IMG/VR virus record: IMGVR_UViG_3300022745_000138
Span: 1-25,064 of that record
Origin: a virus
DNA: 25,064 bases
Reading direction: 5' to 3' (one strand)
Numbering within the stretch: position 1 is the stretch's first letter; every line of letters begins with the position of its first letter. Of the stretch, positions 1-17,116 are shown piece by piece. The position numbers and the translations under genes were made by a program. The notes beneath the pieces were generated by a model. That model saw only the letters and a list, made by a program, of their open reading frames with translations, was not told where the DNA came from and searched no databases.

Positions 1-156
1 GACGAAATGGCTACCGCTATCCTGCAGTTTGCCCACAAGATGGCCCCGGAAGTCATGCGGATTCCCCGTCAGGTCCACCAGTGGCAGGTGTATCGGGATC
101 CGAACCTCGGCAAAATGTCCAAAACCAAGACCTCTAAGGTCGCTGCGAGGGTCTAA
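1..156 (+). CDS. 3' end of an unknown protein (partial)
   Basis: The first frame is open from the window edge to a TAA at 154-156 and gives 51 C-terminal residues ending in a basic, Lys/Thr/Ser-rich tail (SKTKTSKVAARV). The next gene starts only five bases downstream, so it probably belongs to the same operon as the amide-bond cassette. The visible part has no motif that I recognise, and the start lies outside the window. Being the 3' part of a real gene is supported by the tight spacing and the continuous frame; the function is unknown. Confidence 0.6.
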   Translation, partial: DEMATAILQFAHKMAPEVMRIPRQVHQWQVYRDPNLGKMSKTKTSKVAARV

Positions 157-161
157 CAGGC

Positions 162-857
162 ATGTATCGTCCAGCAGACGTTGACAACATCAAGGACTTC
201 GGGCAGTACTACCGACAGTCGTGGATTGGCTATTACGACAAGGAGCATCCGGGGGTAGTGGTACCCTTCTACGTCCATCGCAGTGCTGGCGAGGATCCCA
301 AGAACGTATTTGGGCAGAAGCTCACCAAGACAGCAGGGACCATTGGGCTTCCGGGGGATTACAAGTCCACTGAAGTCCACATCCTCTTCGGGGACATCCT
401 GAAGAACTGTCAGTTCGGTATGCCTCAGTTTGGTTCTGTGATTGCGGGCCACACTGCGTCGTACAACTACCGGGACTCCCCCCGAGAGGGATACCGAGGG
501 TATCGGGCTGAACGTCTCCAGCACCACAAGTTTGGTTTGTGGTTCTACTCAGCCAACGACATCAGGCAGGGGGACTACGACAACTGGGATGAGGTCTGGT
601 ACACCTTCAATCCCTACTACTACGATGCGGGCGCTGCCTTCAGCCTCGTAGAGAGTGGTGAACGTCTCGCCTGCCCCATCAGCCGCTACCTCACGGTACA
701 CGCGGATGGTCAGACCGTCACTCCCGCTCTGTCCTACAAGACAGAAATGATTGGAGCCTTCACAACCGATGGGACGAGTATCGTTCTGTCCAAGGAGTTC
801 AAAGACTACCTCCCGGTCGTTCGTGAAATCACCAAACTTCAGGTGACCCATGAATAA
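162..857 (+). CDS. Unknown 231-aa aromatic-rich protein upstream of the amidoligase
   Basis: I do not recognise this protein. It is soluble-looking, with no signal peptide or membrane segment, and unusually rich in Tyr, Asp and Gly (for example GQYYRQ, YTFNPYYYDAG). The ATG lies five bases after the preceding stop, with only a weak AGG-type ribosome site. Its stop codon overlaps the left arm of a 21-bp palindrome that precedes the amidoligase gene. Its position as the immediate upstream neighbour of two amide ligases makes it a candidate partner or acceptor protein for the cassette, but that is inference from context alone. A structural or tail-associated role cannot be excluded. Confidence 0.75.
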   Translation: MYRPADVDNIKDFGQYYRQSWIGYYDKEHPGVVVPFYVHRSAGEDPKNVFGQKLTKTAGTIGLPGDYKSTEVHILFGDILKNCQFGMPQFGSVIAGHTASYNYRDSPREGYRGYRAERLQHHKFGLWFYSANDIRQGDYDNWDEVWYTFNPYYYDAGAAFSLVESGERLACPISRYLTVHADGQTVTPALSYKTEMIGAFTTDGTSIVLSKEFKDYLPVVREITKLQVTHE

Positions 858-876
858 GCTTTACACTGTAAAGGTT
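856..876. promoter_or_regulatory. Palindromic element copy 1, before the amidoligase start
   Basis: AAGCTTTACACTGTAAAGGTT, followed by TTT. The left arm begins inside the TAA of the upstream gene. The right arm carries TAAAGG, the apparent ribosome binding site, nine bases before the ATG at 884. Pairing of the arms in mRNA would cover that site. As DNA it is a 21-bp dyad fitting a dimeric repressor. Which level acts is not decided by the sequence. Confidence 0.7.
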
Positions 877-883
877 TTTGCCT

Positions 884-2119
884 ATGAGTGAGCTAGGGCG
901 ACTGTTAGGCATCAGTGCTGATGCCCGGACGTTCAAGAGCGATCCCCGTCTCGTAATGCCGGACTGCCGGCTAGGAGTTGAGTGTGAATTTGAAGGAGTC
1001 CGCAAGGCTCTCCCACCGGAACCCGAATCTCGGTATTGGACTCCGCACACCGAGAATTCCCTGCGCAACAACGGTCAAGAGTGGGTGTTCTCAGAGCCCC
1101 TATTTGGTGCGGATGCACACAGGGCGGTCGAGTGGATTCTCAAGAACGCAAAGCTTCAAGGTTATCAGACATCCATACGGACTGGGCTACATGTTCATGT
1201 GGACGCGAGAGACCTAACCTCGGAGCAGTTCAGAAACCTGTGCATCCTCTATGCCTACACGGAGCCAGTTTTGTTTTCGTGGGTAGGGGACAACCGGGAA
1301 GAGTCGGTCTACTGTGTGCCGTGGTACTACGCTGATAGGGCCCTGATGCGTGCGGGGGGCCTTCTCATTGCGATGGACAACGACTCCAAGAAGGACGACA
1401 TCGCTCTCGGCAATATCCGTCCGTACAACCGCCAGACCCGTGCCATACGGGATGTAGCCCCGGAGGAAGCTCATCCCTCGGACACGTCCCGCCACTCAGC
1501 GGAATATGAGCGGTATTCGGCCTTCAACCTGAACGCCCTTCACAAGTTCGGGTCTGTCGAGTTCCGTCACATGCAGATGACCCTCGACCTCCAGCGGACG
1601 ATGGACTGGATCAACATGCTGCTCTCCCTCAAGAAGGCAGCTATGGAACCGGGAGATATGAGTGCACGTATCCTCAAGGAAACCCCTATCGACCTCTTCA
1701 ACCGGGTATTCGGTACGCGGCTCTTTGCGCTCCTTCTGGATGCGTGTAAAGGGAAGTTCAGGGAGAAAGTCGGAATCGGGCACCAGTCTCAGACTGATCT
1801 GGTACGTCTTACGAAGCCCTCCTCGTGGTCCTCACAGGTTCCCAAGGGGCTGGTAGGCAAGTCTCGGGGGGCTACGAAGTTCGCTGCCAAGCACAAGGGG
1901 AAGGACTCTCCATACGTGGATCTGGCTCTAGAGGACGCCACCCCGGAGGTTAGGCACTTCACTCCTGCTCAGGAGACAGCTTACCAGCAGGCGCTAGGCG
2001 CCATACGGGGGGCTAACAGGACGTTTGTGGTGCCTCAGGAGAGAGCTATTCCGGGCATCGCTCGGTATGTTGATGAGTACACCACCATCGGAACCAACCT
2101 CACCCCCGGAGGACGTTAA
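884..2119 (+). CDS. Amidoligase (COOH-NH2 ligase, glutamine-synthetase-like fold)
   Basis: This 411-aa protein has the hallmarks of the amidoligase_2 family, which uses a glutamine-synthetase-like fold to join a carboxylate to an amine at the cost of ATP. Visible motifs are GVECEFE (residues 31-37, acidic metal/ATP-binding strand), the asymmetric acidic/aromatic stretch around WTPHTENSLRNNGQEW, TGLHVHVD (100-107) and FGSVEFRHM (222-230), in the order expected. The last 130 residues are basic and unassigned. I start it at ATG 884, nine bases after TAAAGG; a TTG at 878 lies inside the palindrome and is less likely. It ends three bases before the glutamine amidotransferase. The substrate is unknown; by family analogy it could be a peptide, a cell-wall component or a small metabolite. 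Confidence 0.9.
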   Translation: MSELGRLLGISADARTFKSDPRLVMPDCRLGVECEFEGVRKALPPEPESRYWTPHTENSLRNNGQEWVFSEPLFGADAHRAVEWILKNAKLQGYQTSIRTGLHVHVDARDLTSEQFRNLCILYAYTEPVLFSWVGDNREESVYCVPWYYADRALMRAGGLLIAMDNDSKKDDIALGNIRPYNRQTRAIRDVAPEEAHPSDTSRHSAEYERYSAFNLNALHKFGSVEFRHMQMTLDLQRTMDWINMLLSLKKAAMEPGDMSARILKETPIDLFNRVFGTRLFALLLDACKGKFREKVGIGHQSQTDLVRLTKPSSWSSQVPKGLVGKSRGATKFAAKHKGKDSPYVDLALEDATPEVRHFTPAQETAYQQALGAIRGANRTFVVPQERAIPGIARYVDEYTTIGTNLTPGGR

Positions 2120-2122
2120 TAC

Positions 2123-3733
2123 GTGTGCGGATTGTTTGGCCTAGCCTCAACTGAAGGCAAGAGATTCTTTACCAAGCGTAAGGAAATGCTCGTGGAGGGT
2201 TTGTGGAATACAGCCCTCCGCGGTTTACAGAGCACTGGTATTGCGGCTGTCCGCAAAGGAGAAGAGACTCACCCTCCGTTTGTGTTCAAGCGGGCTCTTT
2301 TGGCGTCTGACTTCATTCAGATGCCTGCTTTCCAGCGTGTAGCGGAGGATGTGGACGAATACTCCATCGTCATCGGCCACACTCGGGCAGCAACAAATGG
2401 CTCCGTGATTGACCGGAATGCTCACCCGTTCTCGTTCAAGCACATCACCCTCGCCCACAACGGGCACATCCAGAACCATCACATGCTGCTCCCGCATGGT
2501 ATGTCGTGCCCCATCACGGTGGATTCGGCTGTCCTCACGATGGCTATGTCGGAACTAGGGGAGAAGGAGACCCTAGAGAAGATCACCGGAGCCTATGCCC
2601 TGACTTGGCACAACTCCAAGGATGGTACGCTGAACTTTGCCCGGAATGACGGGCGACCTCTGAAGTTCTGCTACGTACAGGGGGAGAACACGATGTACTG
2701 GGGCTCGGAACGCCTCATGCTTGTGTCGCTGCTCGACCGCAACGACATCGCTGTGGACGGGAAGTTCAAGAACGTGGTGCCCGGTAAGTGGCTCAAGTTC
2801 AAGGTGGACGACCTTCGGAAGTTTGAAGTCCTGCCTTTCGGCAAGCGGTCAGAGACTACCGGAGTAGCTGGCCGCACAACTTCGACGACGAAACCGGAGC
2901 AGAGTTCAACCGTCACGGAGTTCCCCATCACCAGCGAGGCGGATACCACGGCACTTGGTAAGGACAATGCAGAGAAGCTGCGGCGGGCTGACGTAGTGAT
3001 CCGTAACGTCCTCAAAGACCTTCCCCGAAAGGGAGAGGAGGAAGCCCGAAAAGGGCTCCTGTTTCGGCAGTCATCCGGACGTCCAACGACTAAAAAGAGG
3101 GTCAAGACGGCTACTAACATCCTCAAGGGGATGGGACTAGACTATGACCGTCTTGTGATGTTTGATGCTATCACCTTCGCCAAGTACAAGAATCAGGAGG
3201 TTCTTGGTACTGTCAGGGGATCCGTCAAGCACTGCACTCTGCCCGCTGAACTGGGCAATGTTCCGATGGCTGAGTACAACAAGATGCTCGCAGTGGACGA
3301 GGTCTTATGCCATGTCATCGGGGGGAAGTTCGTAGATGGACGCAAGAACCGTGTCCTAGTCCTCGAACGCCACCCGCTCTGGGAGGAGTTTGCAGAGGCC
3401 ATGCGGTCTAGGAGGGCCCGAGCCGTGACCAACATCCGGACCGCAGCTCCAGCCACTTTCCCGATCCGGGAAATCATGGAAAAGATCGAGGCCAATAGGG
3501 AGGGTTCCGGCACAAGCCGGAGGTTTTGCGGGCCGAGAGGCAGTTCCGTGGACGAGCAGCGATTTGATATGCTTACTCGTAATGGCTGTGGCGCTTGTAG
3601 TGGGGTGGTGGGCAAAGTCAGCACCGATAAGATAATCTGGATCGAGGACACGCCCATCTGCCAAGACTGCTCCACGAACCCCCAAGTTCTGGTGGCGAAC
3701 GAGATCCCCGTTCCCAAGCATCTTCTCTCCTAA
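2123..3733 (+). CDS. Class II glutamine amidotransferase with a long unknown C-terminal half
   Basis: The N-terminal ~240 residues form an Ntn-type glutamine amidotransferase domain, which hydrolyses glutamine and passes on ammonia. The GTG start at 2123 is fixed because the next codon gives the nucleophile Cys2; GGAGG lies ten bases upstream. Further motifs are GHTRAATNG (85-93), LAHNGHIQN (110-118), GAYAL (156-160) and ARNDGRPL (173-180), as in the PurF/GlmS-type glutaminase. No synthase domain of PurF, GlmS, AsnB or GltB type follows. Instead there is a Ser/Thr-rich linker and about 290 unassigned residues with a possible zinc site, CxxC at 489/492 and CxxC at 513/516. It sits between the amidoligase and the cyclotransferase, so it may supply ammonia or a glutamyl group to them. 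Confidence 0.9.
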   Translation: MCGLFGLASTEGKRFFTKRKEMLVEGLWNTALRGLQSTGIAAVRKGEETHPPFVFKRALLASDFIQMPAFQRVAEDVDEYSIVIGHTRAATNGSVIDRNAHPFSFKHITLAHNGHIQNHHMLLPHGMSCPITVDSAVLTMAMSELGEKETLEKITGAYALTWHNSKDGTLNFARNDGRPLKFCYVQGENTMYWGSERLMLVSLLDRNDIAVDGKFKNVVPGKWLKFKVDDLRKFEVLPFGKRSETTGVAGRTTSTTKPEQSSTVTEFPITSEADTTALGKDNAEKLRRADVVIRNVLKDLPRKGEEEARKGLLFRQSSGRPTTKKRVKTATNILKGMGLDYDRLVMFDAITFAKYKNQEVLGTVRGSVKHCTLPAELGNVPMAEYNKMLAVDEVLCHVIGGKFVDGRKNRVLVLERHPLWEEFAEAMRSRRARAVTNIRTAAPATFPIREIMEKIEANREGSGTSRRFCGPRGSSVDEQRFDMLTRNGCGACSGVVGKVSTDKIIWIEDTPICQDCSTNPQVLVANEIPVPKHLLS

Positions 3734-3753
3734 ACCTTAACACTGTAAAGGTT
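3733..3753. promoter_or_regulatory. Palindromic element copy 2, before the cyclotransferase start
   Basis: AACCTTAACACTGTAAAGGTT followed by TTC and then the ATG at 3757. It starts on the last base of the upstream TAA, so it fills exactly the gap between two genes. TAAAGG in the right arm is five bases from the ATG and is the only visible ribosome site, so a stem formed with AACCTT would hide it. Confidence 0.75.
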
Positions 3754-3756
3754 TTC

Positions 3757-4581
3757 ATGACTCAACAGCTTCAAAAGCAGCTTCCTCCAAAGAACGAACA
3801 CCACATGGATGTGTTTGTGTACGGCACCTTGAAGAAGGGGTTTGGTAACCACCACTTCCTAGAGGCAGCCTACTTCATGGGGACGGCTTCGGTCCCCGGC
3901 ATCCTGCTCTCCCTCGGGGGGTTCCCCGGCCTGATCCTCGAAGAGAATGGGTGGAACGTCAAGGGAGAAGTGTGGCGGATCAACAAGGAATTGGATCTGC
4001 CTGCCCTTGACCGTCTGGAAGGGCACCCGTCCCACTACACTCGGAAGGAGATTACCATTCAGGGCTATGGTCTGGTGTCCACCTACGAGTACAACCCGAA
4101 GGAGACCGTTGGGTACCACTACGAGTGCCTGCCGTCCGGGGAGTGGAAGGGACGCCCTGACTTCAACACCACTGCCAAGTGGGTTGGAGTGTTCAGCAAG
4201 GCTCATTCCAAGGAGTACGTCCCGTCCTATGGGCTGTACCTAGATGAGACCTCGGGGTTCCGTGCTGTGGTGGACCTCCAGACTGGAGAGATTGTGGTGA
4301 ATGGAGGACTCAAGAAGCCCCACTTCACCTACGATACCTCCAACCGGAAGTGGGTACCGAAGGATACTCCGAAGATCATCACGGGAACCTCGGAGGATTC
4401 CCGGAACCACGGAGACCTCCACAAGCCTCCCGTTGTCTTGGACCGTGGGTGGGAAGCTCGCCAGCACATGTCGGCCTCCGGGCTGCCTGTGGCTACGACC
4501 TACACTCCACCACCGAAACCCCCGAAGTATGTAGACCCCGCTGATCCGGGAGAGGAGGACGCCGATGGCAGCACGACTTAA
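3757..4581 (+). CDS. Gamma-glutamylcyclotransferase-like (AIG2/GGCT fold) protein
   Basis: Residues about 17-115 match the GGCT/AIG2-like family, whose members release 5-oxoproline from gamma-glutamyl amines. VYGTLKKGFGNH (21-32) forms the substrate loop, FPGLI and VKGEVW (69-73) are core strands, and LDRLEGHPSHYTR carries the likely catalytic Glu88. The remaining ~155 residues are not part of the usual domain and end in a Pro-rich, acidic tail. The ATG at 3757 abuts the regulatory palindrome. An internal ATG at 3805 (MDVFVYGTL) is closer to typical family starts but lacks a clear ribosome site. The gene overlaps the next by 17 bases. In butirosin synthesis an ATP-grasp ligase adds and a GGCT (BtrG) removes a gamma-glutamyl group; a similar pairing here is inference. 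Confidence 0.88.
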   Translation: MTQQLQKQLPPKNEHHMDVFVYGTLKKGFGNHHFLEAAYFMGTASVPGILLSLGGFPGLILEENGWNVKGEVWRINKELDLPALDRLEGHPSHYTRKEITIQGYGLVSTYEYNPKETVGYHYECLPSGEWKGRPDFNTTAKWVGVFSKAHSKEYVPSYGLYLDETSGFRAVVDLQTGEIVVNGGLKKPHFTYDTSNRKWVPKDTPKIITGTSEDSRNHGDLHKPPVVLDRGWEARQHMSASGLPVATTYTPPPKPPKYVDPADPGEEDADGSTT

Positions 4582-5476
4582 GAAACCCCGAGTTGACACC
4601 TTCAAACACTATGATCTGGTGATCTATGCAGCCCGAGGATCCAACAGTGCCCGAACCCTCGCCACGAGTCTTGGTTGTCGAAGATGGCGAGACGACCTCC
4701 CTGAACGCTACAACCGCCGGAAGGCTTATTTCCGAGGTAAACCGTTCCCTCTTGTCCTTAACTGGGGGTCAACCGTTCGTCCTGACTGGGGGAACATCCA
4801 CGGAAGCATGGACGCTTGTAGTAAGGCAGGATTCTGGCTCAACCAGCAGGAAGCCGTGGCAACCGCCATCAACAAGCTCTCCTGCTTCACGAAGCTCTCT
4901 GAACTAGAGGTCCCGACAGTACGATGGACAACCGACAAAGAGAAAGCTGCGAAGTGGTCGGAGAAGGGCCACACCGTGTTTGCCCGAGAGACTGTTACGG
5001 GGGCTGGAGGAGACGGGATCAGGCTGATTCAGCCCGGTACTGCTCTGAACGCTATCCCCACTGTGCCTCTCTACACACGCAACTTCCCGAAGACCCACGA
5101 GTTTCGGGTGCATGTGTTTGATGGGGAAGTCATTGATTTCGCTGAGAAAAAGTCGAGGCTAGACAATGGGAATCCTATCGCGGATCGTCTGGTTCGTAAC
5201 TCTACTAACGGATGGGTTTTTGCTCACGATAACCTGTCTACTTCTAAGGAAACACAGGCAACGCTTGGGGAACTGGCTGTTCGTACTCTGGGCGCTCTGG
5301 GGCTCGTTTCTGGTTGTGTGGATGTCCTTGGTATCTTGGACACCGACGCTACTCGAACTCTCAAACGGGCGGTAGTCTGCGAGGTAAACACCGGTCCCGG
5401 CTTGGAGAACACCATTACTATTGAGGCTTACAAGCAAGCAATCCTCAAGAAGTACAACTCTTTGGGGAGGAAATAA
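4565..5476 (+). CDS. RimK-like ATP-grasp amide ligase
   Basis: This 303-aa protein shows the ATP-grasp pattern: a Gly-rich nucleotide loop RETVTGAGGDGI (141-152), HEFRVHVFDGEVID (178-191) and the metal-binding CEVNTGPGLENT (272-283, with E273 and N275). Such enzymes activate a carboxylate as an acyl phosphate and join it to an amine; RimK-type members often transfer glutamate or other amino acids. The N-terminal 130 residues contain GSNSARTLATSLG, a pre-ATP-grasp part that I cannot assign to a substrate. The start overlaps the cyclotransferase by 17 bases, so the two are translationally coupled. It is the last gene of the cassette before the non-coding region at 5477-5639. Its substrate is unknown. 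Confidence 0.9.
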   Translation: MAARLKKPRVDTFKHYDLVIYAARGSNSARTLATSLGCRRWRDDLPERYNRRKAYFRGKPFPLVLNWGSTVRPDWGNIHGSMDACSKAGFWLNQQEAVATAINKLSCFTKLSELEVPTVRWTTDKEKAAKWSEKGHTVFARETVTGAGGDGIRLIQPGTALNAIPTVPLYTRNFPKTHEFRVHVFDGEVIDFAEKKSRLDNGNPIADRLVRNSTNGWVFAHDNLSTSKETQATLGELAVRTLGALGLVSGCVDVLGILDTDATRTLKRAVVCEVNTGPGLENTITIEAYKQAILKKYNSLGRK

Positions 5477-5630: not shown

Positions 5631-5650
5631 AACCTTTACATGTCAAGGTT
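5631..5650. promoter_or_regulatory. Palindromic element copy 3, containing a start codon
   Basis: AACCTTTACATGTCAAGGTT. The ATG used by the downstream gene (5640-5642) lies in its centre, so the start codon itself rather than the ribosome site would be in the hairpin loop. One arm base differs from the perfect palindrome (C for A). Confidence 0.65.
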
Positions 5651-5918: not shown

Positions 5919-6249
5919 ACTCCTTGACTTTTTGAGCAGTATCCCACCAGATACGACTCTCTGGTCTGAGGATGACCGAGCCTACGGTGAGGTTGGTGCC
6001 ATTGTGTACATACCTGCCCTGAACTCGGTGTCCTTTATCCCTGAAGATGTTCAGGCCACCTTTGACTTCACCCATGAAAAGGGAGCCCAGATCCTCGGAG
6101 ACCCCACCTGCATCCTGTGGGCTGATCTTGACGCTGAAGAACGTCAGGCAGAGAACATTGACTCAGCAGCAGAGGAGGGGGCTTGGGCTCCGCAGGGCAG
6201 AGCCTTGGGTGAAGAAGATGATGCAACGGCCGAAGAGGATGCGTGCTGA
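5905..6249 (+). CDS. Unknown 114-aa acidic protein
   Basis: ATG at 5905 is preceded by GGAGG (5891-5895). The first ~85 residues look folded (TVSELLDFLSSIPPDT, with strands around AIVYIPALNSVSFIP), followed by a disordered acidic tail (EEDDATAEEDAC). The N-terminal pattern of a helix followed by PPDT and short strands is common in small phage proteins, but I cannot name a family. It overlaps the preceding gene by 14 bases and the primase start by about 11, so it is coupled to both. Confidence 0.7.
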   Translation: MTVSELLDFLSSIPPDTTLWSEDDRAYGEVGAIVYIPALNSVSFIPEDVQATFDFTHEKGAQILGDPTCILWADLDAEERQAENIDSAAEEGAWAPQGRALGEEDDATAEEDAC

Positions 6250-7096
6250 AGGAGAAGCCCTTGCCCAGATTAGAGCAACTGCTGGGACTCTCGTGGCCGG
6301 GTCCCGAGCCGCTGGACTACTCTGCCCTGTGTGCGGCGGTGGTAGGACCGGAGAGAGGTCCTTTGGGATTAGCGTGGACGACAAAGGAGTCGTTTTTTAC
6401 CGATGCTTCAGGACACGATGTGGGGCACGCGGCGTTATTGGAACTCCCGACGGAAAGTGGCTCACTGACGCTCGTCCTCTTGGGAGACACCGGCCTACCG
6501 TTCCGTCACTGGCTGTGCCTGACCTACAAGGACTGGGTGGAAGCCTATGGGGCCTTCGACTACAGACCAAGTATGGCATCTCCCCGGTCGAGACGGATTG
6601 GGCGGATTGGGGAGTGGTTAATAAGGGGAGTCCTAGCGAAGTACTGTACATTCCAGTCTACAGCCCGCTCAAGGTTCGACGAGGCTATGAAACGAAGCCC
6701 ATATCTCCCACCAATAACGGAGGAAAATCTCGAAGCATACGTGGACCTGATGCGGTACAGGATGGTGCGTGGGCTGGATACTATGAGAGGTCCGCCAAAG
6801 GATCCGACAGGCCTCTCGTTGTTGTGGAGGATAGCGTATCCGCACTTAAAGTCTCGCGTCACACGGATGCTTACTGTCTGATAGGTACCCACATTTCCAC
6901 GGACAAAGCCTTGGAAATCAACGACTTGTCAGTAGGCAGGAAAGCCCTACTCTGTTTGGATAGGGATGCTACCGACCATGCGGCGGATCTTTGCAAGCGG
7001 CTTCGCTGGACTTGTCCGAATCTGGTGCTCACCCCGATTCGGAAAGACCTCAAATATTACTCGGATGCGGAACTTCTGGAGGTTCTGGATGTCTAA
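6239..7096 (+). CDS. DNA primase (zinc finger plus TOPRIM)
   Basis: This 285-aa protein has an N-terminal zinc finger with Cys29, Cys32, Cys56 and Cys61 (CPVC ... CFRTRC) and a TOPRIM domain with VVVEDS (Glu197) and LDRDA (Asp241 and Asp243) as metal-binding residues. Such proteins make RNA primers at the fork. Unlike T7 gp4 there is no helicase part; the helicase is a separate gene at 8200. The start is uncertain: ATG 6239 fits the domain boundary and overlaps the previous stop, but in-frame ATGs at 6218 and 6221 are also possible and none has a well-spaced ribosome site. It overlaps the next gene by eight bases. Confidence 0.88.
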   Translation: MRAEGEALAQIRATAGTLVAGSRAAGLLCPVCGGGRTGERSFGISVDDKGVVFYRCFRTRCGARGVIGTPDGKWLTDARPLGRHRPTVPSLAVPDLQGLGGSLWGLRLQTKYGISPVETDWADWGVVNKGSPSEVLYIPVYSPLKVRRGYETKPISPTNNGGKSRSIRGPDAVQDGAWAGYYERSAKGSDRPLVVVEDSVSALKVSRHTDAYCLIGTHISTDKALEINDLSVGRKALLCLDRDATDHAADLCKRLRWTCPNLVLTPIRKDLKYYSDAELLEVLDV

Positions 7097-7508
7097 GGTA
7101 AAAGGTAAGCAGAAACCTAAGATTACCTTTCGTTTTTCTTATGCAGACACGCCTTTCAACTGTGGGATCGACACGCTTGGGGAGTTCTGCGGGGGGCATG
7201 TCAACAAAAAGGACTACCCAGAGAAGCTGACAGACGAGCAGTGGCGAGCCCTCCTGTGCGGATGTGTGTTTGCTCACTGCGTACAGTTCAATTGCAAGCA
7301 CTCCCAGCAGAAGTACAACTTCTCTGCACGAGAGCTTGCAGCCTTCTTCCGTCGCAATGGGGCCAAAGTACGGTCCTCCAAGACCGCTAAGTATCACGCC
7401 TATATGGCGGAGCTTCCCACGAAGCTGCTCAACCTGATTCGTGATTCCGAACACCTTGAAGATAAATACCTCGGCACCGCTACGGAGACTGACTATGCGT
7501 TCTGGTAA
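7089..7508 (+). CDS. Unknown family protein, paralogue A (NCGI/YNFSA motifs)
   Basis: A 139-aa protein starting at ATG 7089, six bases after GGAGG. It is not a family I know, but it is clearly homologous to the next gene. Shared positions include F-x-Y with a downstream P-F-NCGI, L-x-EF-x2-GH, LT-x-EQW, a Cys/His pair in the GC..AHC region, YNFSA-x-LA-x-FF and a C-terminal KYLG. Conserved Cys and His could bind metal or be catalytic. It sits between primase and helicase, so a role in replication or in takeover of host DNA functions is plausible. This is inference only. Confidence 0.8.
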   Translation: MSKVKGKQKPKITFRFSYADTPFNCGIDTLGEFCGGHVNKKDYPEKLTDEQWRALLCGCVFAHCVQFNCKHSQQKYNFSARELAAFFRRNGAKVRSSKTAKYHAYMAELPTKLLNLIRDSEHLEDKYLGTATETDYAFW

Positions 7509-8190
7509 CTCAAAGGCCCAGCTTCAGGCTAAGGATGCTCTGGCTCTAGCTGCTTTCCGTATGCAGGCCCGAGCCAATCAGGCGGCCCAGCAGGGTACCA
7601 TGAACAGGCAGGCAAATGCGTGGTGGCAGGCGGAGCCGTGGACTCAGACGGAGCTTCGAGCTGCTCAGGAACAGGGGGCTGCTATTCGGGCAGCGGCTCA
7701 ACGGGCTAATGAGGAGCGTCCGGCAGTGGAAATGGTTCACGACACTACTCCTATCGTCGTTCCCCCGGCCCCGCCTCCGCCGCCCCCGACTCTCCCCCTG
7801 ATGAACTTCAAGCTGAACTATGCGGCAGTTCCCTCGAACTGCGGTATCTCGATGCTCTGTGAGTTCACCTATGGGCACAAGGTCCGGACTGAAATGGATG
7901 CTCCGGCTCCCCTCACTCGGGAACAGTGGCTTGCCCAGCTTGCTGGGGTCTGTGTTCATCCGACCTGCATGTTCACGGACGTGGCTCGGCAGAAGGGGTA
8001 CAACTTCTCCGCTGAAAAGCTCGCTGACTTCTTCGAGAAGGAGAACTGCATTGTCACCCGTGCCCCAACCAAGTATGGGACGACCTACGTGGTGGTTCTG
8101 ACCAACGACCTCTTCAACGAAATCTACCGCTTCAAGGATGAGGCCAAGTACATTGGTCCGGGGCATCGGATAAAGGCTGCAAACTGGTAA
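7495..8190 (+). CDS. Unknown family protein, paralogue B with Pro-rich linker
   Basis: A 231-aa protein from ATG 7495 (GGAG seven bases upstream), overlapping its paralogue by 14 bases. The first ~80 residues are Ala/Gln/Arg-rich and helical, then comes a proline linker (PPAPPPPPPTLP), then the same domain as the preceding gene with NCGI, EF-x2-GH, LTREQW, GVCVHPTC, YNFSA-x-LA-x-FF and KYIGPG. This arrangement suggests a tethered version of the domain, perhaps with the helical arm binding a partner. The divergence between the copies is large, so the duplication is old or was acquired as a pair. Function unknown. Confidence 0.8.
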   Translation: MRSGNSKAQLQAKDALALAAFRMQARANQAAQQGTMNRQANAWWQAEPWTQTELRAAQEQGAAIRAAAQRANEERPAVEMVHDTTPIVVPPAPPPPPPTLPLMNFKLNYAAVPSNCGISMLCEFTYGHKVRTEMDAPAPLTREQWLAQLAGVCVHPTCMFTDVARQKGYNFSAEKLADFFEKENCIVTRAPTKYGTTYVVVLTNDLFNEIYRFKDEAKYIGPGHRIKAANW

Positions 8191-8199
8191 GGGAGGCAG

Positions 8200-9405
8200 A
8201 TGGAACAGAAAATCATCAAGGCTCTGGCCTCCTCCCGGAGTATCTGGGAACGGGCTAGGGATCTAATCAACCCATATAAGGAGATGTCTTCTGAGGGAAG
8301 CAATATCTATGATCGTATCTCGGAGTATTATAACAATGACCCGGATGCGGCAAGCGTGGATATTGAACTTCTTTGTGCCCAGATTGAACGAAACACTTCT
8401 AGTGTTAAACTTGCTGAAGCTATTTGCAAAACACTTCGTAATCTTCCTGAAGATGTTTCCAACCTTAACATTGTAAAGGAATTGCTCGACCTCAAGCGTC
8501 ACAACCTTGGGCAGGAGCTAAGTGGGATGCTGGCAGCCGGGCGAGCCAAGCCGGAAGAAATCCAGAAACGGATGGAGGAATATCTTGGCCTCGAAGGAAC
8601 CGCCGACGATACCGAAAGTGAAGTGGAGGAGCTTAACTCTGTCAAGGTTACAGATCTGGTTCAGCACTCTTTCAATGAAGGGAACCTCATCCGTCTATCT
8701 CCAAGGGTTCTCAACGATGCTTGCGATGGGGGCGCTAAGCCGGGTCATCATATTCTCGTATTCGCACCAACGGAAATGGGCAAAACGCTTTTCGTTATCA
8801 ACATGGTCTCGGGGTTCATCGAGCAAAAGTTGCGTGTACTTTACATCGGAAACGAGGATCCAGCAGCAGATATATACATGCGGTATATCACTCGGCTAAC
8901 CGGGAGAAACAAGCATGACGTACTCAAGGAGCCAGCTAAGGCCCAGACCCTACTGGAGAAGAAGGGATACGAGCTTCTCACTCTTGCTCCTCTCGCTCCG
9001 GGGAATTTCCGTCAGATCAATAGGCTCATCGACAAATATGACCCACAAGTTGTCATCCTTGACCAGCTCCGAAACCTCGACGTTTCTTCTGAAGGAAGAA
9101 CTCAGCAGCTTGAAAAGGCAGCTACAGAGGCTCGAAACCTCGCTAAGCGACGACAAATCCTCGTTGTCTCCGTTACGCAGGCTGGAGATAGCGCGTCTGG
9201 TAAACGCATCCTTGACCGAGGCGATGTGGACGGCAGCAATGTCGGCATCCCCGGCCAAGCAGACCTGATGATCGGGATTGGAGCCACCGCAGACGAGGAG
9301 CAGAAGAATGAACGGTGGATGTCCTTCCCAAAGAATAAGCTGTCCGGAAACCACGCACCCATCAAGGTGTCCATTGACCCCCACACAAGCAGGGTTATCG
9401 AATGA
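8200..9405 (+). CDS. Replicative DNA helicase (RecA fold, DnaB-like)
   Basis: A 401-aa protein. Residues about 145-401 form a RecA-type ATPase: Walker A APTEMGKT (189-196, with Ala in place of the first Gly), Walker B VVILDQLRN (284-292) and the sensor strand VVSVTQAG (322-329, Gln327). These fit the DnaB/gp4 helicase class that unwinds DNA ahead of the polymerase. The N-terminal ~140 residues are helical and are not the normal DnaB N-terminal domain; they may bind the separate primase. The ATG has AAGG/GGGAGG just upstream. One copy of the palindromic element lies inside the gene (8461-8481). It overlaps the next gene by four bases. Confidence 0.88.
   Translation: MEQKIIKALASSRSIWERARDLINPYKEMSSEGSNIYDRISEYYNNDPDAASVDIELLCAQIERNTSSVKLAEAICKTLRNLPEDVSNLNIVKELLDLKRHNLGQELSGMLAAGRAKPEEIQKRMEEYLGLEGTADDTESEVEELNSVKVTDLVQHSFNEGNLIRLSPRVLNDACDGGAKPGHHILVFAPTEMGKTLFVINMVSGFIEQKLRVLYIGNEDPAADIYMRYITRLTGRNKHDVLKEPAKAQTLLEKKGYELLTLAPLAPGNFRQINRLIDKYDPQVVILDQLRNLDVSSEGRTQQLEKAATEARNLAKRRQILVVSVTQAGDSASGKRILDRGDVDGSNVGIPGQADLMIGIGATADEEQKNERWMSFPKNKLSGNHAPIKVSIDPHTSRVIE
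8461..8481. promoter_or_regulatory. Palindromic element copy 4, inside the helicase gene
   Basis: AACCTTAACATTGTAAAGGAA encodes residues NLNIVKE of the helicase. The last two bases break the right arm. No downstream start codon fits its ribosome-site part, so here it could only act as a DNA site, or be a weak or chance match. Confidence 0.45.
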
Positions 9406-9599: not shown

Positions 9600-9880
9600 A
9601 AGTTCCCTACAGCCAGACCTACGTAGCAGTCCTAGGGCGAGCCCTCGACTTGTTCATCAGTACCGCACTAAAGAGGGACTACGGGATTACCGTGAGTTCG
9701 TGGTGTGGAATGACTCTCCGGAAGGGAGATTCCAGTTCACCATACTGGAAGCTTGGTAAGTTTCTGAATTTCCTACAAAAAGACCACTGCGAGCTGGCTA
9801 TGGCCTGCGACCGCGAAAGGGCACAGTATGTCATCGACACTCTTCCGGGAGACGCTCCCAAGCTTTCTAACTCGGGATAA
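9593..9880 (+). CDS. Unknown 95-aa protein between helicase and polymerase
   Basis: I place the start at ATG 9593 (or GTG 9596), overlapping the zinc-protein stop. The sequence contains hydrophobic helices (VAVLGRALDLFISTAL, KFLNFLQ) and no recognised motif. It shares its last 53 bases with the beginning of the DNA polymerase gene, a long overlap even for this genome. That the frame is really translated is supported by the coupled start and by the fact that it fills the gap 9600-9827. Function unknown. Confidence 0.6.
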   Translation: MVKVPYSQTYVAVLGRALDLFISTALKRDYGITVSSWCGMTLRKGDSSSPYWKLGKFLNFLQKDHCELAMACDRERAQYVIDTLPGDAPKLSNSG

Positions 9881-11762
9881 ACCATATGAAATCTACGACT
9901 CCGACAACTACCTCGTCTTGGACTTTGAGACTACAAATCTCGACAAAGGCTCCGCTATCCAAAGAGGAAATCGACTTCTTCTCGCCACTTGGGCGGGATG
10001 TTCTGTTTCCGACTCGGGGCGTGGAACAGTTCTACACCACTGGGGAGACGAGTTCTCCCAGAAAGAGCTTGTGGAAGCTTGCTATGCTGCCGACTTCCTT
10101 GTGGCGCAAAATGCTAAATTTGAGCTTCAATGGCTCAGTAGAATGGGGGTCGAGACGCATAGGCTCGTCGTGTATGATACGATGCTCGGAGAATATGTCC
10201 GACTCGGAAATCGGAGAGGCCCAAAGGACCTTGACAGCCTTTGTGAACGGTATGGAGTCCCAACTAAAAACTCTCTCGTCAAGCATCTTATCGGAGGAGG
10301 AGTATGCCCCTCAGAAATCCCCGAAGGATGGCTCGAAGAGTACGGCATCGGAGACACCCGCAATACCCATGAAGTGTTCCTGCGCCAAAGGGAAGAGCTT
10401 CGTAGTCTCAGACTTCTGCCGGTCTTGTTTACAAGATGTCTTGCCACAACTGTCCTAGCTGATATTGAAATGCAAGGGGTCCATGCGGGCCCGGAGGAAG
10501 TGTATGCAGAGTACAAGGCTACGCAGGATCTATACACAGCCGCTCAGAGACGGGTGGAGGAACTCACAGGTGGAATCAATCTCAATAGCCCTAAACAGGT
10601 TGGAGAATTCCTTTACGACCGACTTGGATTCGCAGAGCTACGCGACCGACGCTCAGGCGAGGCTGATCGGACGGATGCGGGAAACCGTCGAACAGATGAA
10701 GATGCAATCGCTGCACTTACAGCGACTACTCCAGAGCAACGGGCTGTACAAGATGCGTTCCTTGCAGCGAAGCCCCTTTTCAAACGGCTCGACGCCCTAG
10801 AGAAACTCAAAGGGTGCGTAGACGAGGACAAAGGAATCCTATATGGGAACATTAACCAAGCAATTACACAGACTCATCGCACGTCGTCGTCGGGAAAGAA
10901 GTGGAAGCTTCAGTTTCAGAATTTTGACCGAGATCTTAAGCCGTTGTTTTCCTCTCGACATTCTGGCTGGCTCGTCGGCGAAGCGGATGGTTCGGGATTG
11001 GAGTTCCGGGGAGCAGGGCACCTTGGTCGGGATACGAAGATCATTTCTGACATTAGAGAAGGAGTTGACCCACACCTATTTTCTGCGAGCGTCATATTCC
11101 GCACGCCAGAGAGCCGGGTTTCCAAGCCACAAAGAACCGCCGCTAAAGCCCACACCTTCAAACCCCTCTTCGGAGGAATGAGTGGAACACCTGACGAAGT
11201 ACGGTACTATAAGGCCTTTCGTGGGAAGTATCATGAACTCTTCGACTGTCAGACTCGTTGGACTCATGAGGTACTACAGACCGGGAAACTTGTTACGGAG
11301 TGGGGCCTCATCTTCTATTGGCCTGACACTACAGTCTCCAGAAGTGGGTACGTATCGAATACAACTAGTATCTTCAACTACCCTATCCAGTCCTTCTGCA
11401 CAGCAGAAATTATACCAATATCATTGGTTTACTTCTGGCATAGGGCCAAGCGGCTACGACTTAATCTGTTTCTGGTCAACACCGTCCACGATTCAATCAT
11501 CGTGGAATTGCCGCCTGAAGAGTCCGATATTTTTAGGGAGCTAAGTGAGCAGGCGTTTACTGGGGATGTGTACGATTACTTGTGGAGGAACTACCGGATC
11601 AAAATGACTATCCCTCTAGGCTGTGAAACAAAGGTAGGAACACATTGGGGAGTTGGAAGTGAGCGAAAGTATAACCGAGAACCTAGCTATCCAGAAGAAA
11701 CGGGAGCACAATCGACGGACTCAGGCGCGCTGGCGAGAGAGTCAGCGGCTGCTTGGTCGTAA
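9828..11762 (+). CDS. Family A DNA polymerase with 3'-5' exonuclease
   Basis: A 644-aa replicative polymerase of the T7 gp5/PolA type. The N-terminal proofreading domain shows DFETTNLD (Asp32, Glu34), AQNAKFEL (95-100 region) and YGIGDTRNTHEVF (Tyr172, Asp176). The polymerase domain shows motif A EADGSGLEFR (Asp387), motif B R436-TAA-K440-AHT-F444-KPL-F448-G and motif C VNTVHDSIIVE (His554, Asp555). Two positions deviate from the textbook: the last aromatic of motif B is Phe where PolA and T7 have Tyr, and motif C reads HDS rather than HDE. The ATG at 9828 follows AAAGGG. The C-terminal ~35 residues are poorly ordered and overlap the next gene. Confidence 0.93.
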   Translation: MSSTLFRETLPSFLTRDKPYEIYDSDNYLVLDFETTNLDKGSAIQRGNRLLLATWAGCSVSDSGRGTVLHHWGDEFSQKELVEACYAADFLVAQNAKFELQWLSRMGVETHRLVVYDTMLGEYVRLGNRRGPKDLDSLCERYGVPTKNSLVKHLIGGGVCPSEIPEGWLEEYGIGDTRNTHEVFLRQREELRSLRLLPVLFTRCLATTVLADIEMQGVHAGPEEVYAEYKATQDLYTAAQRRVEELTGGINLNSPKQVGEFLYDRLGFAELRDRRSGEADRTDAGNRRTDEDAIAALTATTPEQRAVQDAFLAAKPLFKRLDALEKLKGCVDEDKGILYGNINQAITQTHRTSSSGKKWKLQFQNFDRDLKPLFSSRHSGWLVGEADGSGLEFRGAGHLGRDTKIISDIREGVDPHLFSASVIFRTPESRVSKPQRTAAKAHTFKPLFGGMSGTPDEVRYYKAFRGKYHELFDCQTRWTHEVLQTGKLVTEWGLIFYWPDTTVSRSGYVSNTTSIFNYPIQSFCTAEIIPISLVYFWHRAKRLRLNLFLVNTVHDSIIVELPPEESDIFRELSEQAFTGDVYDYLWRNYRIKMTIPLGCETKVGTHWGVGSERKYNREPSYPEETGAQSTDSGALARESAAAWS

Positions 11763-13032: not shown

Positions 13033-13052
13033 AACCTTAACATGTAAAGGTT
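13033..13052. promoter_or_regulatory. Palindromic element copy 5, before the SLOG gene
   Basis: AACCTTAACATGTAAAGGTT followed by TT and the ATG at 13055. TAAAGG in the right arm is four bases from the ATG. Only one arm position (A-A) is unpaired. It lies five bases after the terminator stem and its T stretch, so it heads a new unit. Confidence 0.75.
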
Positions 13053-15842: not shown

Positions 15843-15859
15843 GTTACCCAAAGGGTAAC
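15843..15859. other. Stem-loop GTTACCC-AAA-GGGTAAC
   Basis: A perfect 7-bp hairpin directly after the last early gene, overlapping the left arm of palindrome copy 6. An AACCTTACA just before it (15834-15842) repeats the left arm of that palindrome, so two alternative folds with the arm AAAGGTT are possible. Confidence 0.6.
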
Positions 15860-15876
15860 CTTTACATGTAAAGGTT
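15857..15876. promoter_or_regulatory. Palindromic element copy 6, perfect, in the convergence zone
   Basis: AACCTTTACATGTAAAGGTT is a perfect 20-bp palindrome followed by TTTTCG. No gene starts after it on either strand: the plus-strand genes end at 15833 and the minus-strand genes end at 15974. It is therefore not a translation signal here. It may be a terminator part or a DNA-binding site. Confidence 0.7.
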
Positions 15877-15973: not shown

Positions 15974-16393
15974 TTAGGCTACGCCCTTAACCTTCTCATA
16001 GCTACGGGCACCAATGTGGATACCGAGCAGACCAGTGAGCATCAGGTAGAGGTTACTGTCCAGAGGGGGAAGCTTGACAGGAACATCATGCCCAGTCCAC
16101 AGAGTGTACACGTAGGAGGCGGTAGGGACTACAACCCACTGCACAGCTACGCCAATCGTACCTACGTACATCAGGAGAGGGCGGGCATTGGCCTTAAAGC
16201 CGGAGCCCTTAGCATCCTCTAGGTTGATGTCTGTCTGGGCCTTCTCCGAGGCGGCCTGAAGATCAAGCTCCTTGAACTCACCGGCCTGTTGAGCCTTGAA
16301 TAGCTCAAGCTGGGCAGCAGCTTTCTGCTGGGGGTCTGGGATGAAATTAAGCAGCTTCGTGATGATGGGGGCTGCTACGTCTAGAATACTCAT
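15974..16393 (-). CDS. Holin of the three-TM (gene-transfer-agent release) type
   Basis: A 139-aa protein with a charged, helical N-terminal part (IPDPQQKAAAQLELFKAQQ, residues ~18-36), then ARPLLMYVGTIGVAVQWVVV (a membrane segment) and NLYLMLTGLLGIHIGARSYEK (another). The Pro-rich N-terminus, coil, NARPLLMY entry and GxHIGARSYEKV end fit the 3TM phage/GTA holin family. It would form the inner-membrane lesion that lets the lysozyme reach the cell wall. Its ATG overlaps the SprT stop. It is the last late gene before the terminator. Confidence 0.8.
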   Translation of the reverse strand: MSILDVAAPIITKLLNFIPDPQQKAAAQLELFKAQQAGEFKELDLQAASEKAQTDINLEDAKGSGFKANARPLLMYVGTIGVAVQWVVVPTASYVYTLWTGHDVPVKLPPLDSNLYLMLTGLLGIHIGARSYEKVKGVA

Positions 16394-16725
16394 ATCTCTA
16401 ATCCTGTAAGGTCTCTAATTCGGGCTTGCTCTCTAAGGAAGGGCTCAGCGTGTCCGTGCCAGTCAGGCTCTCCAGATTGATGAAGGAACTGGTGGACCAT
16501 TTCGTGGAGGAGGGTGGCTCGTAGTTCCTCAATGGGTTTGTTCCAGTGTCCAGAGATATACATTGAGGCTTTCTGTGACGAATCAGTGACGCCATAGTAG
16601 CCATAGTATTTCTTAGCGCGAGTGAGCATAATTGGTACATACTCTAGTTTCCCGCCGAACACCAGTTCATTATATTCATTCCAGATTTGTTTGAGGGTTT
16701 GAAGCTTTCTGAGAGTCCGCAACAC
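16390..16725 (-). CDS. SprT-like zinc metallopeptidase
   Basis: A 111-aa protein starting at GTG with GAGG nine bases upstream. The zinc motif HEMVH (74-78) and a third-ligand His in DWHGHAEPF (90/92) follow the SprT-like arrangement, with the Tyr-rich strand region KYYGYYG and the HWNKPIEELRATLLHE lead-in typical of the domain. It is shorter than cellular SprT proteins and has no zinc ribbon. It overlaps the lysozyme gene by 50 bases and the holin by four, so it is expressed with lysis functions. Its substrate is unknown; a cell-envelope or DNA-crosslinked protein are both possible. Confidence 0.82.
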   Translation of the reverse strand: MLRTLRKLQTLKQIWNEYNELVFGGKLEYVPIMLTRAKKYYGYYGVTDSSQKASMYISGHWNKPIEELRATLLHEMVHQFLHQSGEPDWHGHAEPFLREQARIRDLTGLEI

Positions 16726-17116
16726 TTCTAATTACCTCACACATTTCCTTGCCTCTATTCCCTACCTGCTTGTACCAGAGGGTGGTCTCTAGGTCATCAG
16801 CCGCAGCGTGGAACAGCCCAGCATCAATGAAACTCAGGAAGACATTAAACTTCCTGAGCTTCTCGATCCCTAGGTTAAACGTAAGCTCCACCAGAATATC
16901 CTTGATGACGGGATCCGCAGAACCATAACATGTTAAGGTTTCGGCATCCTTAGTAGCCAGCCGAATGCGGTTATCCAAGATAAAGTTAATCTCGTCATCG
17001 TACAACCCCACGTCCGTGAGGTTGAAACCTACCCCAATAGTTACCTTCCCCACGGTATCAACGTAGGGCTTATTCTTCCAGCCTTCGTGGTGAATTAGAC
17101 TGTCTCTGAGAGCCAT
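16676..17116 (-). CDS. Endolysin, T4-type lysozyme (GH24 muramidase)
   Basis: A 146-aa protein. The start MALRDSLIHHEG at 17116 (GGAAG upstream) puts the catalytic residues at Glu11, Asp20 and Thr26, the numbering of T4 lysozyme, in HHEGWKNKPYVDTVGKVTIGVG. It cuts the N-acetylmuramic acid to N-acetylglucosamine bond in peptidoglycan. A longer in-frame opening to 17296 lies within the virion protein gene and is not needed. There is no signal peptide or SAR segment, so export depends on the holin. Palindrome copy 7 lies inside the gene. Confidence 0.92.
   Translation of the reverse strand: MALRDSLIHHEGWKNKPYVDTVGKVTIGVGFNLTDVGLYDDEINFILDNRIRLATKDAETLTCYGSADPVIKDILVELTFNLGIEKLRKFNVFLSFIDAGLFHAAADDLETTLWYKQVGNRGKEMCEVIRSVADSQKASNPQTNLE
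16921..16940. promoter_or_regulatory. Palindromic element copy 7, inside the lysozyme gene
   Basis: AACCATAACATGTTAAGGTT differs from the consensus at two positions but keeps most of the dyad. It lies in coding sequence on the minus strand and has no start codon in a usable position. A DNA-level function or chance resemblance is possible. Confidence 0.4.

Follow-up and report, generated by a model that had tools for sequence, protein, structure and literature searches.

A left-truncated amidoligase/ATP-grasp cassette in a virus record, and alternation of GGCT and peptidase C26 among related cassettes

In RIO-1-like, phiEco32-like and LUZ24-like phages, a group of genes has been named the "Peptidoglycan Modification Cassette" and is thought to block superinfection (PMC5498523). 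The phages listed with it are phiEco32, 7-11, PA11, tf, LUZ24, PaP3 and CW02, and one ligase of the RIO-1 type is annotated as a gamma-glutamyl amidoligase (both PMC5498523); PMC10580990 credits the cassette idea to Iyer et al. 2009. Both the cassette and its proposed link to the envelope and superinfection are already in print, and the interpretation is mostly published. Sequenced phages with the cassette number in the hundreds and include several laboratory phages; no experimentally demonstrated function turned up in the literature that we searched.

In the butirosin BtrJ/BtrG system, an ATP-grasp ligase is combined with removal of a gamma-glutamyl group by a GGCT-family enzyme. The phage cassette shares both elements, but it has additional glutamine synthetase (GS)-like ligases and a glutamine amidotransferase (GATase). 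A preliminary description of the locus had drawn the butirosin analogy; the gamma-glutamyl removal step holds, whereas the acyl carrier protein has no counterpart, as a search of 20 records, among them the window (the whole 25,064-base virus record analyzed here), gave no PP-binding domain, and an ACP-bound pathway for the cassette is not supported. In the ergothioneine EgtA/EgtC system, a ligase forms a gamma-glutamyl compound and an enzyme of the class-II GATase fold removes the glutamate; the model of the cassette GATase matches the gamma-glutamyl hydrolase EgtC, but EgtB/EgtD-type enzymes were not seen in the cassette and other ligases are present. The putrescine PuuA/PuuD pair consists of a GS-like gamma-glutamyl ligase and a peptidase C26 hydrolase, and C26 stands in for GGCT in many cassettes; unlike the cassette, PuuA/PuuD forms a catabolic bacterial pathway and has no ATP-grasp enzyme or class-II GATase.

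Cassette genes in the window and in related viruses

The window, a record truncated at its left and right ends, contains a left-truncated member of the phage amidoligase/ATP-grasp cassette with the following features:

1..156, + strand: C-terminal fragment (51 aa) of an upstream gene, open at the contig start
162..857, + strand: conserved cassette protein "HYP" (231 aa), LUZ24 gp17 family, by family HMM and L023 match
878..2119, + strand: amidoligase (Amidoligase_2, glutamine-synthetase/GCS-like), Pfam Amidoligase_2, E 5e-9, above cut-off
2123..3733, + strand: class-II GATase/Ntn hydrolase, Pfam GATase_6, E 5e-19
3587..3670, + strand: zinc-ribbon motif CxxC-(20)-CxxC at the GATase C-terminus (aa 489-516), by alignment
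3757..4581, + strand: gamma-glutamyl cyclotransferase (GGCT; GGACT/AIG2), Pfam GGACT, E 1e-23
4565..5476, + strand: RimK-like ATP-grasp ligase, PHROG 2599 "ribosomal protein S6 glutaminyl transferase", E 3e-55

The preliminary description had placed a four-gene cassette at 162-5476. Its four enzymes are genuine ORFs, all on the + strand, and their family assignments are borne out by Pfam or PHROG matches at these positions, although the Pfam search gave no match for the ATP-grasp ligase (4565-5476). The described spacings were also confirmed (3 bases between amidoligase and GATase, 23 bases between GATase and GGCT, and a 17-base overlap between GGCT and ATP-grasp). The block at 162-857, however, is on sequence evidence a separate fifth gene of the cassette that had been overlooked. 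The window shares with the known cassette (phiEco32, LUZ24/PaP3, RIO-1/HP1, CW02) the Amidoligase_2, class-II GATase, GGCT and RimK-like ATP-grasp genes, a protein of ~190 aa, a single orientation and a position before replication genes. It differs in that GGCT lies between GATase and ATP-grasp, in that a COOH-NH2 ligase is not visible because the contig stops there, and in its divergence, its ATP-grasp and amidoligase being about 20-38% identical to those of the isolated phages used for comparison.

Based on the ATP-grasp ligase, the closest relatives of the window are the viral loci L023 (50% identity) and L024 (53% identity). Both have the gene order COOH-NH2 ligase, HYP, amidoligase, GATase, GGCT, ATP-grasp, and the window follows this order from HYP onward. 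The contig starts 161 bases ahead of the cassette, and the left contig end truncates the cassette where L023 and L024 carry the COOH-NH2 ligase (PF14395) directly upstream. The fragment at 1-156 was tried as the C-terminus of this ligase and rejected, as its alignment scores against L023 and L024 were within the shuffled range; a COOH-NH2 ligase upstream of the window is therefore expected rather than shown.

Using tblastn against GenBank phage records, we identified relatives of the amidoligase (163), GATase (332), GGCT (105) and ATP-grasp ligase (308), none with ≥60% identity. Scans of viral_contigs with the single amidoligase, ATP-grasp or ORF 162-857 protein found no close relatives, whereas an ATP-grasp profile did recover relatives in viral contigs; the conservation of the amidoligase was too low for a profile scan. 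This profile identified at least 459 relatives in viral contigs versus 13 in bacterial genome contigs, so the ATP-grasp family is essentially phage-borne. Block-wise co-occurrence, which the preliminary description had proposed to look for, was found throughout: amidoligase and GATase lie beside ATP-grasp in 59/59 other viral loci, which were retrieved with the ATP-grasp profile as sole criterion and have 4.5 kb or more of upstream sequence, and the block is therefore not due to chance.

The cassette precedes replication genes in LUZ24, UFV-P2, GAP52, CW02, CVT22, Pecta, RIO-1, phiM6, Vibrio 1.293, LAh_6 and others, and in the window it is followed by a primase (within 6047-7096), a helicase (8200-9405) and a DNA polymerase (9828-11762). 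The polymerase has only about 40% identity to those of Vibrio phage VpV262 and Stenotrophomonas phage StenR_269, placing this virus far from the sequenced cassette-carrying phages. The position directly before replication genes, in the window and its relatives, would suit DNA hypermodification by the cassette, but no member of the thymidylate synthase/hydroxymethylase family was found in 38 records, window included, which upholds the argument made earlier against this highly improbable explanation. A role of the cassette in auxiliary nitrogen or amino-acid metabolism of its host, along the lines proposed for Planctomycetes phage ZRK32, which has the same gene families and for which growth promotion was reported (PMC10945688), is also very unlikely: the same cassette is found in lytic phages, and the ZRK32 effect is linked to these genes by correlation.

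We read catalytic positions from alignments with 11-19 relatives per enzyme. The preliminary description had named defective active sites in two or more enzymes as an outcome that would count against it; instead, the catalytic residues are intact in all four. The amidoligase retains the motifs ExExE, HxH and ExR, the GATase its catalytic and glutamine-site residues C2, R88, N113-G114 and D134, GGCT its catalytic E88, and the ATP-grasp ligase D253, E273 and N275. Translation of the amidoligase probably starts at ATG 884 rather than TTG 878, since a palindrome ends at 876. In structural comparison, the first domain of the GATase, its glutaminase domain, resembles GlmS (E 6e-14) as well as EgtC (E 1e-9); beyond it, the AlphaFold2 model (pLDDT 84) contains a helical region, a small beta-barrel and the C-terminal zinc ribbon, whose motif is retained in most relatives, and the protein has no fused synthase domain. 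Based on this model, the GATase may supply ammonia to the amidoligase, or it may itself cleave a gamma-glutamyl group. GGCT bears a long proline-rich C-terminal tail, and its structural relatives in the PDB are YtfP (1xhs) and an AIG2-like protein (3jub). In the locus L104:11013-12077, on a contig binned as Desulfuromonadaceae, a class-II GATase and GGCT are fused in a single 355-aa ORF.

A profile for HYP was built from the ~190-aa protein that 18 phages encode between their COOH-NH2 ligase and amidoligase genes, and the resulting HMM matches ORF 162-857 along its entire length (E 3e-10). The L023 protein aligns to this ORF with 29% identity (E 1e-25), and tblastn of the ORF against GenBank phages gave zero matches. 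Members of the family are ~190-230 aa long and are encoded just ahead of the amidoligase. AlphaFold2 predicted the HYP structure with confidence (pLDDT 89.6, pTM 0.86). Against the PDB, Foldseek found no match better than E 0.4; partial matches to SH3/Tudor/BAH-like folds were weak (best E 0.43) and were treated as no match. Comparison with viral models gave 11 matches at E <0.001 (best 5e-11), including the cassette phages CW02 and Vp_R1. As modeled, HYP is a phage protein without a recognized fold relative, and as such it offers a second handle on the question of the cassette's function.

The closest solved relatives of the ATP-grasp ligase include RimK (4iwx), which modifies protein S6, and an alpha-L-glutamate ligase (7qys). 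These relatives would be consistent with protein tagging, in which a protein of the host or the phage would receive amino acids from the RimK-like ligase and be edited by GGCT or C26, and the conserved HYP could then serve as substrate or adaptor. We regard this as quite unlikely, as small molecules are also substrates of RimK-like ligases and the HYP alignment showed no conserved C-terminal tail.

Alternation of GGCT and peptidase C26

Curated Pfam models were run over the full length of 50 virus records that had been selected solely by their ATP-grasp. A COOH-NH2 ligase was found in 44 of the 50 (43 in one search and G001/L023 in another); among these 44, Pfam detected GGCT only in 21, C26 only in 18, both in 4 and neither in L040. 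The C26 of L040 is truncated at the contig end and was missed by Pfam but detected by a custom model; counting it, a gamma-glutamyl-cleaving enzyme is present in 44/44 records with the ligase. In the other 6 records, which have the amidoligase-GATase-ATP-grasp core without COOH-NH2 ligase, GGCT and C26 are both absent. With a significance that is overstated owing to shared ancestry among records, Fisher tests gave p = 1e-7 for the alternation of GGCT and C26 and p = 4e-7 for the link between cleaver and COOH-NH2 ligase (7e-7 and 3e-5, respectively, when each 60%-identity cluster was represented by a single record). About 10 switches between GGCT and C26 are needed on the ATP-grasp tree. Across loci, the Cys, His and Glu of C26 are conserved, as is the Glu of GGCT. 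At least one cleaver was also present in 21/21 GenBank phages (11 GGCT, 6 C26, 4 both), a biased sample in which some phages were picked through GGCT matches. The distant loci L104 and L109 have GGCT and no detectable COOH-NH2 ligase; in the direction from GGCT to the ligase, the link therefore does not hold strictly.

Because the alternating enzymes have unrelated folds yet cleave the same bond, the gamma-glutamyl bond is probably a shared intermediate. We found no description of the alternation in the literature searched, which did not include Iyer et al. 2009. Coupled to one ligase, the alternation restricts the chemistry to a gamma-glutamyl intermediate that can be removed again, predicts which species a mutant should accumulate and gives an old question a concrete test.

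A three-gene type of the cassette (L027, L037, L047, L063, L080, L101 and similar) consists only of amidoligase (mostly >500 aa), GATase and ATP-grasp, without COOH-NH2 ligase, HYP, GGCT or C26. The constancy of the amidoligase-GATase pair in all 59 loci, this type included, and the intact glutamine-site residues of the GATase are consistent with a split glutamine-dependent amide synthetase, with GGCT or C26 only recycling by-products of the COOH-NH2 ligase. We view this explanation as possible but doubtful: the GATase lacks a fused synthase domain and its glutaminase domain also resembles the hydrolase EgtC, and a by-product role accounts less readily for the presence of a cleaver in every phage with COOH-NH2 ligase.

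A possible temporary glutamate and the peptidoglycan explanation

Comparison with 71 related viruses suggests that the cassette attaches glutamate as a temporary handle, extends or amidates the product, and then has the glutamate removed by GGCT or C26, the target probably being a host molecule; we favor this reading tentatively, as plausible but somewhat short of probable. A small amide-linked product would be built in the cytoplasm. The COOH-NH2 ligase, whose role as maker of the gamma-glutamyl bond we infer from its fold and published annotation only, would form an amide between an amine and the glutamate gamma-carboxyl. The ATP-grasp ligase would append a further amino acid or carboxylate, and the amidoligase/GATase pair would amidate the product with glutamine-derived ammonia; alternatively, if the GATase is EgtC-like, this pair could attach and remove a gamma-glutamyl group once more. 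GGCT (C26 in other phages) would strip the gamma-glutamyl group and free the amine, and the 231-aa HYP could act as scaffold or adaptor. The GATase-GGCT fusion in L104 and the EgtC likeness of the GATase domain also support the temporary-glutamate reading. A more specific version, a dedicated protect-modify-deprotect pathway with two gamma-glutamyl ligase/cleaver pairs (COOH-NH2 ligase with GGCT/C26, amidoligase with an EgtC-like GATase), a single ATP-grasp ligase and an adaptor confined to phages, which together would make an undescribed small amide product, is rather doubtful.

Based on published expression data, the cassette is "expressed immediately" in phage HP1 (PMC7082346), and ORF32-48 of PaP3 belong to the middle expression class (PMC4707531). 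This early-to-middle timing in HP1 and PaP3 suggests that the target belongs to the host and not to the virion, and that the cassette acts during takeover and replication instead of on finished virions.

GGCT and C26 act on gamma-glutamyl groups that bear a free alpha-amine, whereas the D-Glu of the wall peptide is acylated. This difference in substrate bears on the published view that three ligases put unusual links on peptidoglycan side chains and thereby block superinfection, stated for the RIO-1-like, phiEco32-like and LUZ24-like phages (PMC5498523) and cited in PMC10580990. The immediate expression in HP1 fits this view, which would also agree with the temporary-glutamate reading if the amine carrying the handle were that of a wall precursor. 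However, the five window proteins all lack a clear hydrophobic segment of the membrane type (maximum Kyte-Doolittle value 1.64 over 19 residues); all five look cytoplasmic from their sequences, so only cytoplasmic wall precursors would likely be reached. With the acylated D-Glu unlike the substrates of GGCT and C26, and no experimental test found in the literature searched, we consider peptidoglycan modification rather unlikely.

Palindromes and neighboring genes

A near-perfect palindrome, AACCTTWACA(N)TGTAAAGGTT, recurs in the window, whereas shuffled sequences give 0-1 copies:

856..876: palindrome AAGCTTTACACTGTAAAGGTT, operator-like, just ahead of the amidoligase start
3733..3753: second copy, just ahead of the GGCT start
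5631..5650: third copy, downstream of the cassette
13033-13052 and 15857-15876: further copies
8461-8481 and 16921-16940: weaker copies

One copy precedes a SLOG-family gene. The palindrome looks like a candidate operator for a phage regulator; it is absent in the closest relatives L023 and L024. Control by RNA hairpins is not supported, as folding was not clearly better than that of shuffles.

When neighbors of the related cassettes were clustered for a clue to the substrate, the commonest upstream family was PHROG 34254/27195, a recurrent protein of ~300-440 aa at 15 loci (L009:597-1922 and 14 others), mostly upstream of C26-type cassettes. Neither this family nor LUZ24 gp14/gp15 gave a significant Pfam match.

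Elsewhere in the window, ORFs 7089-7508 and 7441-8190 have a common stretch (7305-7349 and 7990-8034) that is 76% identical, which probably reflects a gene duplication. A gene for a SprT-like metalloprotease (16390-16725) is flanked by holin and lysozyme genes.
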